Source: a virus. Taken from it: DNA of 35,200 nucleotides. Shown piece by piece: positions 19,175-23,387 of the stretch. The position numbers and the translations under genes are program-made. Under the pieces are notes generated by a model. It was not told the origin of the DNA. It saw nothing but the letters and a program-made list of their open reading frames with translations, and ran no database searches. Where the stretch lies: positions 1 to 35,200 of IMG/VR virus record IMGVR_UViG_3300043823_000105; one strand, 5' to 3'. Every line of letters starts with the position of its first letter. Position 1 is the first letter of the stretch.

Positions 19175-19341
19175 TGGCAACAAACTATAAAATCTCAGGC
19201 AAAGAATATAAATCTCCCAAATCACACTATGTCGTGGTTAGAGAACATGAAAAGAAGACCGAGAACGAACTTCACAGGCTAGAAGATAAACTCAAAAAAC
19301 ATGAGAATCTGCCTATGGAAAAAGCGCATCCTAAATCTTAA
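19174..19341 (+). CDS. Small lysine-rich protein
   Basis: 55 residues (MATNYKISGKEYKSPKSHYVVVREHEKKTENELHRLEDKLKKHE...). It is charged and helical, with no recognised domain. It starts in TAATG overlap with the endolysin stop, so it is translated with the lysis genes. Its TAA stop at 19339-19341 shares the palindrome TTAA with the stop of the opposing minus-strand operon. Confidence 0.65.
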   Translation: MATNYKISGKEYKSPKSHYVVVREHEKKTENELHRLEDKLKKHENLPMEKAHPKS

Positions 19342-19697
19342 TTGGTAGCGGATTTTTTCCAATACTCGTATGTATCGGGCAGGGGAATGTCTTTAGGCCA
19401 TAGGTCGTGATAGATCATTTCCCAGACTGTCGTTAGATGAGCTGTATCCCAAAGTCGTGTTCTTTCGTCTTTGGATAACTTATGCCCTTGGTCTATTTCC
19501 ATGTGGCAAGAATGACACAGTGCAGCGATATACACGTCTGACGCCTTAATCCCTCTGCCTTTGCCGTGTTTGGCCTGGTTGCTATGCGCTGCGACTACAG
19601 TACCGTCCTCAATTCCGCAAATCTGACAAGGCAAAAGCCTCACCGACTCCAGTAGCTTTTTCGAGCGGATGTATGTTGTCTTTGCAATTGTGACCAT
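19338..19697 (-). CDS. YbcO-like HNH nuclease (DUF1364 type)
   Basis: 119 residues: TTYIRSKKLLESVRLLPCQICGIEDGTVVAAHSNQAKHGKGRGIKASDVYIAALCHSCHMEIDQG. Zinc-type CQIC and CHSC pairs plus AAHSN and the conserved KASD..IAALCHSCH block fit the YbcO nuclease family found beside NinB/NinG in lambdoid phages. It is the last gene of the minus-strand operon. A role in recombination or branched-DNA processing is inferred from neighbours. Confidence 0.82.
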   Translation of the reverse strand: MVTIAKTTYIRSKKLLESVRLLPCQICGIEDGTVVAAHSNQAKHGKGRGIKASDVYIAALCHSCHMEIDQGHKLSKDERTRLWDTAHLTTVWEMIYHDLWPKDIPLPDTYEYWKKSATN

Positions 19698-21439: not shown

Positions 21440-21612
21440 TGCTCCAGCTCCTTAATTTTCTCTGCCACATCCTTGCCTAAATTTTTAAATATTGGCTCGG
21501 TATTCATTTTCTCTTTAACCACACCTCGGATGTAATCCCTCCATCCAGGGTTTAGGGCTAGTTTTGCGTAAAAATCCACAATGGATCGATACTCAGCGTC
21601 CCAGTCAAACAT
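21436..21612 (-). CDS. Small early protein
   Basis: 58 residues (MFDWDAEYRSIVDFYAKLALNPGWRDYIRGVVKEKMNTEP...KIKELEQ). Acidic N-terminus and helical C-terminus. Overlapping junctions on both sides (ATGA to the next gene, 8 nt with the previous) show it belongs to the operon. Family not recognised. Confidence 0.62.
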   Translation of the reverse strand: MFDWDAEYRSIVDFYAKLALNPGWRDYIRGVVKEKMNTEPIFKNLGKDVAEKIKELEQ

Positions 21613-21805
21613 CGTTGTCCTCGACTATCCATTTACGCATCTCGTTTGATCTACGGTATCCCAGAGCCTTATACAGGGTAGGAGCGGTGTTTTTAACCTC
21701 TGCGAATACCTTGGGTAGTCTATTGTGTACAGGATACTTAGAACGCATTAGTTTGGTTTTTACGGGCCAGGGTGGTACTGGTTGCCAGATTGTTTTAATT
21801 TCCAT
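21605..21805 (-). CDS. Small basic early protein
   Basis: 66 residues (MEIKTIWQPVPPWPVKTKLMRSKYPVHNRLPKVFAEVKNTAPTLYKALGYRRSNEMRKW). Proline-rich, then basic. It starts within the last codons of the methyltransferase frame. Possible DNA- or protein-binding role, not demonstrable. Confidence 0.6.
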   Translation of the reverse strand: MEIKTIWQPVPPWPVKTKLMRSKYPVHNRLPKVFAEVKNTAPTLYKALGYRRSNEMRKWIVEDNDV

Positions 21806-23024
21806 TTAAGATTCTCCATGCGGTTGCTGCACATAATGGGACTTGTCCATTTCCAATGGCTTTAAGTCTGTCCATTCCTGCTATTTTTGTGCCACTAACT
21901 CTGGGAATGATCTGCGCTTCATCCATGCCAATTTGTTCCCACATTCCCGACTGCAAGTTTTCTCTCTTGCTCTCTTGTATGTGAACTGAATCCCGCAATA
22001 AAGACAAATCCTCTCCTTGGTGTGATCTTTCCATCTTTCGTTGGCGTGCAATGTCCCATGACATATCTGACAAAGAATCGCTATGTTGGATTTCTGATTG
22101 TTGAATGGGTTGTGATCCAAGTGGTGTCTGTGAAGGGTCTGAGTTCCACCACATCGTTCGCATTTGTCCAAAATTTTGTATAGCCGTTGCGCTTTCCTGT
22201 GTCCAGCGTTCAAATTCTTTTTTGTTAAATCCATTTATTTCACTCCATTTGATAGGCCAATTCATAAGCCATTCTACCCAATCCGGATTGAGTTTTCCAG
22301 AATTAGGATGAGCAACCATAGACAAATTTAATTGTTTCCCTTTTTCTGCTCTACGTTGAATTGCAGGGTTACTCATGTTACCCCTATCCCTACAATCCGA
22401 TGCTTGAGGTGTTGGAAACATCCTGTCCCGAACCGCTTGGTTGATGGAATATTGAGCTGAATGACCCGATTTGCGCTTGGGTGTCCAATTCTCCTGAGTT
22501 CCCCGCATTCCACAGTTTGCATCTGGTGTAGGCCATGTTTGTTCCGACAATCCAGATCCTGTCCCTCTGATGGTTTGCTCCAACGTCTGCCGCTCCCAAC
22601 ACTCCCCATTTCGCATCAAACCCCATTGAGGCCAAGTCTCCGAGAACTCGTCCAAGCCCCCTAGAAGTGAGCATTGGTGAGTTCTCCACAAAGACGTATC
22701 TGGGTCGTACTTCACGAATGATCCGTGCCATTTCTCCCCACATTCCTGAGCGTTCTCCATCAATTCCTGCTCCTTTTCCTGCAGCACTAATGTCCTGACA
22801 TGGAAAGCCACCACTGATGACATCAACAACTCCTCGCCAGGGATGTCCGTCAAAGGTTTGTACGTCATCCCAAATCGGGAAAGGCGGGAGAAGACCGTCA
22901 TTTTGTCGGGCGCACAGTACGCTTGCTGGGTAGGGTTCCCACTCAACTGCACAGACTGTTCTCCATCCAAGGAGTTTGCCTCCAAGTATTCCTCCACCAG
23001 CGCCTGCGAAAAGAGCCAACTCAT
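21795..23024 (-). CDS. C5-methyltransferase second frame: recognition region and motif X (beta-subunit-like)
   Basis: 409 residues, starting four bases after the alpha frame and overlapping it for about 630 nt. Residues 105-170 (KYDPDTSLWRTHQCSLLGG, DEFSETWPQWGLMRNGECWE, TWPTPDA) and LNPDWVEWLMNWPIKWSEI resemble a conserved phage family that accompanies Dcm-like enzymes. The end GMDRLKAIGNGQVP + LCAATAW is C5-methyltransferase motif X, absent from the alpha frame. Known precedents are M.EcoHK31I and M.AquI, where motifs are split between overlapping genes. Residues about 264-382 also overlap an HNH gene in another frame. The N-terminal 100 residues may be partly a shadow. Confidence 0.7.
   Translation of the reverse strand: MSWLFSQALVEEYLEANSLDGEQSVQLSGNPTQQAYCAPDKMTVFSRLSRFGMTYKPLTDIPGEELLMSSVVAFHVRTLVLQEKEQELMENAQECGEKWHGSFVKYDPDTSLWRTHQCSLLGGLDEFSETWPQWGLMRNGECWERQTLEQTIRGTGSGLSEQTWPTPDANCGMRGTQENWTPKRKSGHSAQYSINQAVRDRMFPTPQASDCRDRGNMSNPAIQRRAEKGKQLNLSMVAHPNSGKLNPDWVEWLMNWPIKWSEINGFNKKEFERWTQESATAIQNFGQMRTMWWNSDPSQTPLGSQPIQQSEIQHSDSLSDMSWDIARQRKMERSHQGEDLSLLRDSVHIQESKRENLQSGMWEQIGMDEAQIIPRVSGTKIAGMDRLKAIGNGQVPLCAATAWRILNGN
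21881..22234 (-). CDS. HNH endonuclease nested inside the methyltransferase gene
   Basis: 117 residues: CERC at 25-28, HRHHLDHNPFNNQKSNIAILCQICHGTLH (35-63, full HNH core) and a second zinc pair CLYC/CSREC (77-98). A GGAG ribosome site lies nine bases before the ATG. It lies wholly within the 409-residue frame at 21795-23024, in a different frame. The flanking host sequences are WPIKWSEI before and motif X after. This is the layout of a homing endonuclease inserted in a conserved gene. Too little room is left for a ribozyme core. Confidence 0.86.
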   Translation of the reverse strand: MDLTKKNLNAGHRKAQRLYKILDKCERCGGTQTLHRHHLDHNPFNNQKSNIAILCQICHGTLHANERWKDHTKERICLYCGIQFTYKRAREKTCSRECGNKLAWMKRRSFPELVAQK

Positions 23025-23028
23025 TCAT
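22390..23028 (-). CDS. C5-cytosine DNA methyltransferase, catalytic frame (alpha-subunit-like)
   Basis: 212 residues. Motif I is FAGAGG (7-12). Motif IV is GGFPCQD with nucleophile C77. Motif VI is VENSP (114-118). Motif VIII is QRDRIWIV (154-161). SAM binding and catalysis are covered, but the frame stops before the recognition domain and motifs IX-X. Those lie in the overlapping -strand frame to 21795. It methylates cytosine in phage DNA, protecting it from host restriction. The start is in ATGA overlap with the upstream gene. Either it works as a split enzyme or it is a truncated, frameshifted gene. Confidence 0.88.
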   Translation of the reverse strand: MNELALFAGAGGGILGGKLLGWRTVCAVEWEPYPASVLCARQNDGLLPPFPIWDDVQTFDGHPWRGVVDVISGGFPCQDISAAGKGAGIDGERSGMWGEMARIIREVRPRYVFVENSPMLTSRGLGRVLGDLASMGFDAKWGVLGAADVGANHQRDRIWIVGTNMAYTRCKLWNAGNSGELDTQAQIGSFSSIFHQPSGSGQDVSNTSSIGL

Positions 23029-23387
23029 ACTCTCCCCACATTTTTAAGTCTTTCCTTGACCCATTCAGGCATAGGAACAGCGTTATTTTTTTCTTGATCC
23101 AACTTGACGAGATACGGGTCTCTAACTTGAACCATCGTAGATGTCTCTGGTATTTCAGCACCATCCCATCTTTGTTGATTAAGATATACAAGTGGAGCAG
23201 GTATAAAAGCTCCATTATTTGATCTCCATTGATCTGTGGTTTTCATCCATTCAACGTGCTTTATGATTTGATCGGAGCAATGTTCGCATAAAAATTTGTC
23301 CCATTTTTTTCGACATTCTGACTTTGCTCCTTTTCTGGGAGATTTTGGCCAAGCGTCCCAAAATTTTTCAAATCCTGATTCAAACAT
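23025..23387 (-). CDS. Replication-protein-like gene
   Basis: 120 residues. FEKFWDAWPKSPRKGAKSECRKKWDKF and WRSNNGAFIPAPLVYLNQQRWDG are the conserved C-terminal blocks of phage replication (O/DnaT-like) proteins. The N-terminal DNA-binding half of such proteins is absent. It is the only candidate replication gene in the genome. It is coupled to the methyltransferase by ATGA overlap. Role by similarity of motifs, not proven. Confidence 0.7.
   Translation of the reverse strand: MFESGFEKFWDAWPKSPRKGAKSECRKKWDKFLCEHCSDQIIKHVEWMKTTDQWRSNNGAFIPAPLVYLNQQRWDGAEIPETSTMVQVRDPYLVKLDQEKNNAVPMPEWVKERLKNVGRV

Follow-up and report, generated by a model that had tools for sequence, protein, structure and literature searches.

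The locus examined here lies within a 35,200-nt stretch of viral DNA (IMG/VR virus record IMGVR_UViG_3300043823_000105, hereafter the window), where three overlapping genes on the minus strand share the DNA of a phage C5-methyltransferase. The first, alpha (A frame, 22390..23028, 212 aa), contains C5-methyltransferase motifs I–VIII, matches Pfam DNA_methylase (3e-32) and phrog_363 (3e-59), and is followed by several A-frame stops beyond position 22390. The second, beta (B frame, 21795..23024, 409 aa), is an overprinted partner of alpha that starts 4 nt after it, crosses the third gene and ends with methyltransferase motif X; it matches phrog_1008 (3e-31), a separate PHROGs family named ‘DNA methyltransferase’ that matches all 34 of 34 aligned beta proteins. 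The third, an HNH endonuclease gene (H frame, equal to B+1, 21881..22234), is nested in beta in the remaining frame as a complete ORF of 117 aa with an ATG start and a TAG stop. Its likely ribosome binding site is a GGAG (22243..22246, minus strand) located 8 nt upstream of the ATG and within the beta codons for W-S, and in all 11 close relatives examined TGGAG is conserved upstream of this ATG. An initial annotation, made from the letters of the DNA, had described a complete HNH gene with its own GGAG in a third frame, together with a beta frame open across it, and both descriptions hold, as beta contains no stop across the HNH gene or anywhere in 23024..21795. The virus record, of 35.2 kb, has one copy.

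The nested protein displays an HNH core (paired His, Asn, final His and Cys zinc ligands) together with C-terminal zinc-binding Cys, and residues C25-C28, H37-H38, N50 and C55-C58-H59 are invariant in 12 aligned relatives. It matches the HNH family phrog_1271 (1e-9), and its Pfam HNH score of 18.9 bits lies below the 21.4 cut-off. Its AlphaFold2 model is usable (mean pLDDT 73.9), and a fold search with this model returned weak matches to HNH nucleases (among them endonuclease VII and 4h9d), none with E < 0.001. The gene is presumably translated, and its product would cut DNA and promote homing. With an E cut-off of 1e-3, cultured phages yielded 6 records of relatives of the nested HNH; one, from Staphylococcus phage CUB-EPI_14, lies inside a methyltransferase. 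A second HNH-like gene in the window (19338-19697, minus strand; phrog_131, weak DUF968/YbcO) is unrelated and lies outside any long ORF.

Related loci were gathered by HNH or beta similarity into a set of 280 (L001-L280 without L095, plus the window) and scanned with two HNH profiles, T1 representing the type found in the window and T2 a type with zinc fingers in front. Three-frame readings of HNH-free relatives place the entire methyltransferase, including motif X (DRLKAIGNGQVP), in the A frame, with B open over the A-frame gene and ending in ..LNPxWVEWLMGWPLGWTDLKPLEMDKS..GES and a stop. In these relatives B is open in 48 of 48 cases versus 0.075 expected from synonymous shuffles of A, a beta start codon is found at +4 in all 48, and the third frame is open in none of them. 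Thus, beta is an overprinted ORF that predates the insertion. The initial annotation had the HNH gene inserted inside the methyltransferase as read in beta; the insertion stands, but beta is not the ancestral methyltransferase frame, since motif X belongs to alpha in HNH-free relatives. The overprinted frame runs along the whole alpha gene, and tblastn finds beta in 101 phage and 8 plasmid records.

A block of beta (LNPDWVEWLMNWPIKW, 22245..22292, minus strand) that is near-invariant in 34 aligned beta proteins is probably motif IX, an assignment that we presume from the resemblance of LNPxWVEWLMGWPxxW to the motif IX consensus. Pfam, PDB and profile searches gave no support for a motif IX in beta, and the predicted structure of beta is poor (pLDDT 49.6). 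Separately, poly-G tracts (roughly 9 to 17 G) are found within the dual-frame methyltransferase gene, following the alpha DISAAG in L008, L015, L017 and L037, and past motif VIII in L033, L057, L066 and L077. Slippage on such tracts would swap A and B in the downstream part of the gene, an arrangement suggestive of phase variation.

Comparison with HNH-free homologues, proposed in the initial annotation as a way of locating the insertion points, revealed a net insertion of 373 nt (21881..22253, minus strand), the exact ends being the simplest placement and not proven. The HNH gene starts 19 nt into the insert, whose last codon is the HNH stop. All 63 of 63 HNH-free sites have 35 nt between the beta block and motif X, and the element type of the window has 408 nt; among the carriers in the rows listed (25 of 35) this distance is 408, 411 or 489 nt, and 210 nt in L093. 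The excess over HNH-free sites in these rows is 373, 376 or 454 nt, always 1 mod 3, and a separate register test found 22 of 22 long spacings in register with B and 29 of 29 short spacings out of it. Since the insert is 1 mod 3, motif X (GMDRLKAIGNGQVPLCAATAWRILNGN, 21798..21878, minus strand) moves from the alpha frame, where it lies in HNH-free relatives, to the beta frame, where it lies in the window. Neither the length of the insert modulo 3 nor this switch of motif X appeared in the initial annotation.

Both flanks retain the earlier arrangement. Behind the insert, the DNA of the motif X region is 93% identical over 72 nt to that of HNH-free L039, and the 5' part of the window locus is 89% identical to the same locus over 495 nt. 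An A-frame remnant (GRMAYELAYQME followed by a stop, 22240..22278, minus strand), recognized by three-frame reading beside HNH-free loci, corresponds to the segment preceding motif X in HNH-free alpha, and an H-frame remnant behind the insert (QEWTDLKPLEMDKSHYVQQPHGES followed by a stop, 21806..21880, minus strand) corresponds to the old beta C-terminus, the same tail that closes beta in HNH-free loci. HNH-free relatives containing the same beta residues at this place, considered in the initial annotation as the observation that would speak against an insertion, were not found in a tblastn search with beta residues 275-370, which returned only loci with an HNH gene or its remnant, the exceptions being an other-strand match in L043 (E 0.8) and a weak match in L183, which has an HNH segment. 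One of the loci found, L093, retains part of the insert-encoded beta residues, most of its HNH gene having been lost by a deletion that kept beta open into motif X. At the 3' junction of L083 and L085 the HNH stop is missing, and the HNH ORF continues into the old beta tail (WTDLKPLE..). By protein reading the upstream and downstream flanks resemble two copies of one segment, and for some loci this resemblance extends to DNA, as in L047 (identity 0.60, 0 of 200 sequence windows as high). A target-site duplication is not claimed for the locus under study, where the flanks show a DNA identity of 0.31, a value reached by 51 of 200 sequence windows.

A census of distinct loci, which share ancestry and are not to be counted as independent events, displays the same relation between the HNH gene and the frame of motif X. 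In the 62 HNH-free loci, the ORF of alpha itself contains motif X in 53 cases, and the other nine comprise seven with long poly-G tracts that shift the frame, L093 with its decayed HNH, and L060 with a stop in the same frame. The 45 HNH-bearing loci include 34 in which motif X lies in A+1, the beta frame (all 16 of the T1 loci and 18 of the 29 T2 loci), 10 in which it shares an ORF with alpha (all of them T2, nine in frame and L008 with a poly-G shift), and one in which it lies in A+2. One group, which is ShiLan-like, thus has the HNH-plus-motif-X unit joined to alpha, and the other has the same unit joined to beta. In 44 of these 45 loci the ORF carrying motif X spans the HNH gene in phase 2; the exception is L003, in which a stop occurs in beta within the HNH gene and beta is broken, unless this is a sequencing error.

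The initial annotation had estimated the chance of beta remaining open over the HNH gene at about (61/64)^118. Openness is indeed improbable, but this figure is too generous when compared with simulations that take the nuclease into account: with the HNH protein held fixed, beta was open in 4 of 20,000 sequences when the gene's own codons were shuffled (mean 5.6 stops), and in 0 of 20,000 when codons were drawn from phage usage (mean 10.0 stops). Across 174 distinct HNH segments, phase 2 (host in H+2, the beta-like relation) is open in 67 versus 2.0 expected from within-gene shuffles, and phase 1 in 9 versus 10.6 expected; the HNH queries were themselves nested, so that the nested share is no estimate for the population, although the same-gene shuffle comparison is unaffected. 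In 56 nested (open) HNH segments of at least 240 nt, none of 1890 codons preceding AA, AG or GA ends in T, as opposed to 1075 of 4212 (25.5%) elsewhere in these genes; the zero follows from openness itself, and the contrast with codons elsewhere is the informative part. The corresponding rates in 54 non-open HNH segments are 432 of 1305 (33.1%) and 805 of 2368 (34.0%). Since the T rate stays normal elsewhere in nested HNH genes, stops are avoided in beta by local codon choice. NNT and NNC are always synonymous, so every phase-2 stop is silently removable, and a synonymous recoding that clears phase 2 exists for 75 of 75 HNH segments of at least 80 aa, as compared to only 32 of 75 for phase 1.

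The initial annotation had further suggested that selection keeps the host gene readable through its parasite. Openness and stop avoidance support this idea, but the constraint on beta residues for which a test had been proposed failed to appear, as ten close relatives revealed none inside the HNH part beyond the absence of stops. Mean amino-acid identity in this part is 0.77 for the HNH frame, 0.50 for beta and 0.51 for the unused frame, and rates at the three HNH codon positions are 0.18, 0.14 and 0.41, the third being fastest; too few flanking orthologous single-frame genes were shared for these rates to have a rate control. Because beta residues here are no more conserved than those of the unused frame, the HNH-derived stretch of beta is best seen as a linker needing only freedom from stops.

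The insertion is also associated with changes in alpha. With rows lacking the beta block dropped, none of 39 HNH-free loci has an A-frame stop after codon 165, as opposed to 9 of 13 loci with a T1 gene and 10 of 14 with T2; alpha ends at very different codons, 188 to 365, in T1 carriers, and in the window six A-frame stops precede the insert. Alpha beyond motif VIII is thus no longer maintained after the frame switch, and often decays. In L093, where 198 nt of the HNH gene are deleted, beta is still in frame with motif X. Together with the decay of alpha, this fits a two-chain enzyme in which alpha would supply motifs I–VIII and beta motifs IX and X, by analogy with M.AquI.

The sequence of events may be envisaged as follows. 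A mobile element of homing type, belonging to the ‘hidden, out-of-frame HNH’ class, would have entered a two-polypeptide phage C5-methyltransferase gene exactly at the overlap of beta's motif IX and alpha's motif X, and its 373 nt (1 mod 3) would have placed motif X downstream of beta and in frame with it, with the HNH gene in the third frame between them. Beta would have been kept open by codons of the element that avoid T before AA, AG or GA. Three products would result, namely alpha (I–VIII), beta (IX, an HNH-derived linker and X) and a nuclease initiated at its own GGAG and ATG. Alpha and beta presumably assemble in trans as in M.AquI, so that the methyltransferase and its activity would survive the insertion, and the old C-terminal half of alpha would then be free to decay. 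This explanation as a whole, a homing-type HNH in a dual-frame methyltransferase with motif X moved to beta in an AquI-like split enzyme, is in our judgment probably correct.

A programmed +1 ribosomal frameshift joining alpha and beta in one full-length chain, with beta through the HNH gene as its second half, is an unlikely alternative account of the same frames. A and B are indeed parallel along the entire gene, and a shift between motif VIII and 22390 would therefore yield motifs I–VIII followed by IX and X, and poly-G tracts in four HNH-free relatives swap both frames at that very place. No shared slippery site was seen at the end of alpha, however, where the T1 proteins terminate at widely scattered codons, and beta has a separate start at +4 in every one of the 48 HNH-free genes.

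Somewhat less probable again is that the insertion killed the methyltransferase, and that beta is open owing to recent insertion, biased codon use or chance. The alpha of the window has lost most of its variable region as well as motif X, and beta residues within the insert are unconserved; given the loss of most of the variable region, the methyltransferase of the window itself may be weak or dead. Against a general loss of function stand the degree of openness, far beyond that of shuffled genes in sequences down to about 38% beta identity, the presence of a different HNH type at the same site and in the same frame relation, and the beta of L093, still joined to motif X after loss of the HNH gene.

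The distribution of the HNH gene suggests mobility. On a 90-row tree built from the alpha N-terminus by a short search, the state of the HNH gene requires 19 changes, although many branches are poorly supported and, for T1, no more than 2 changes are demanded by branches with strong support. The alpha nearest to that of the window, at 97%, belongs to HNH-free L039. HNH proteins are found among restriction enzymes, and the two genes of a restriction-modification pair lie next to each other, so that the HNH protein could be viewed as the restriction partner of the methyltransferase within a compact overlapping restriction-modification unit. This we consider very improbable, as 62 of 107 distinct methyltransferase loci in the sample have no HNH at all, two unlike HNH types (T1 and T2) share the same site, and similar phase-2 HNHs occur in DNA polymerase III, terminase inteins and N4/N6-methyltransferases. 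The ORFs nested in these other hosts are full-length, and some include further DNA-binding parts. The hosts are DNA polymerase III alpha (L206), terminase ORFs that contain an intein or Hint domain (L217, L226, L105) and in which one would look for an in-frame endonuclease domain instead, N4/N6-methyltransferases or ORFs that match the PHROG of these enzymes (L220, L231, L248, L210), and the methyltransferase of the Staphylococcus phage mentioned above (L001). The host frame of these other nested HNHs is open in 0 to 116 of 2000 shuffles each, L220 (116) being the weakest case. Phase 1 overlap of an HNH with a long ORF was seen in a few loci (L116, L190, L192, L207, L237), and in Mycobacterium phage Jung (gp55-gp56, L282) a similar HNH is free-standing just upstream of the methyltransferase gene, with a 4-nt overlap.

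Least credible is a cryptic intron or intein that splices itself out at the RNA or protein level, with readability incidental. Excision of exactly 373 nt could in principle bring back both earlier frames at the junction, and the former beta tail is still present behind the insert. However, a search of 21500-23300 against Rfam gave no match at E up to 1, and beta has no Pfam match at E up to 10 (hence no intein Hint/splicing domain). Splicing could not repair the alpha of the window, with its six stops before the insert; motif X is connected to a start codon in no frame other than beta through the HNH gene; and splicing would not demand an open beta in 44 of 45 loci.

A probable homing-type element without splicing, with the host gene kept readable by codon choice, is the reading retained, and its implications extend beyond the present locus. 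A nuclease gene having neither intron nor intein could lodge in a coding gene, phase 2 being the one frame phase in which the host can always be kept readable without any change to the nuclease. Because silent recoding opens the host frame, phase-2 HNHs could sit in essential genes and in the endonuclease slot of inteins. That phase-2 nested HNHs form a general splicing-free mobile class, including members in such positions, and have repeatedly converted methyltransferases of the EcoHK31I type to the AquI type, is offered more tentatively, and we place it slightly below an even chance. The most surprising part, if true, is that a selfish element re-divides one enzyme between two overlapping genes, which would constitute a directly testable route for domain exchange between such genes. 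The same process would explain long disordered inserts in phage methyltransferases, and annotators are warned of nuclease genes hidden within them.

The class to which this locus belongs was first described in 2025, and the window locus is a distinct and well-supported variant of it. The ShiLan domain, as described by Arsenault, Gosselin & Gogarten (PMC11855218), is an out-of-frame HNH inside a phage methylase with an open host frame, patchy distribution and no signs of an intron or intein, all of which it shares with the window, where the HNH ORF likewise occupies a different frame of an open host ORF. Common to both are also an HNH start close to the beginning of the insert (about 18 nt inside it in ShiLan), an HNH stop at its end, and, as listed there, resemblance of the insert start to the 3' flank. 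However, the ShiLan insert (606 nt, 0 mod 3) is in frame with a single-frame methylase according to the same text, whereas the window insert is out of frame with its host methylase, and motif X changes frame. The HNH is of a different type, and no ribosome binding site was reported for it (PMC11855218), in contrast to the GGAG of the window. Our own reading of the ShiLan frames places the host in H+1, the opposite phase to the H+2 of the window. Another out-of-frame HNH, in the Applejack gp54/gp55 methylase, has been announced only, and the available part of the announcement gives no frame or evolutionary analysis (PMC12613952). A search of the open-access literature found no switch of motif X between overlapping frames, no role of codon choice in one phase and no HNHs nested inside inteins, although a bioRxiv preprint on actinobacteriophage inteins may treat some of these points.

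Two known but unexplained layouts of split methyltransferases would be linked by a single insertion event. The two genes of M.EcoHK31I overlap in different frames, and to our knowledge there is no HNH in M.AquI. The available description of M.EcoHK31I assigns motifs I–VIII and X to the larger chain and motif IX alone to the smaller chain (PMC3404938), a layout matching the one proposed for the HNH-free relatives, the likeness being one of motif layout alone. Unlike the window, M.EcoHK31I has no HNH and its motif X stays in alpha. For M.AquI the same source gives motifs I–VIII in the larger chain and IX-X in the smaller (PMC3404938), matching the layout proposed after the insertion, while the beta of the window, unlike its M.AquI counterpart, overlaps alpha fully and carries an HNH-derived linker.
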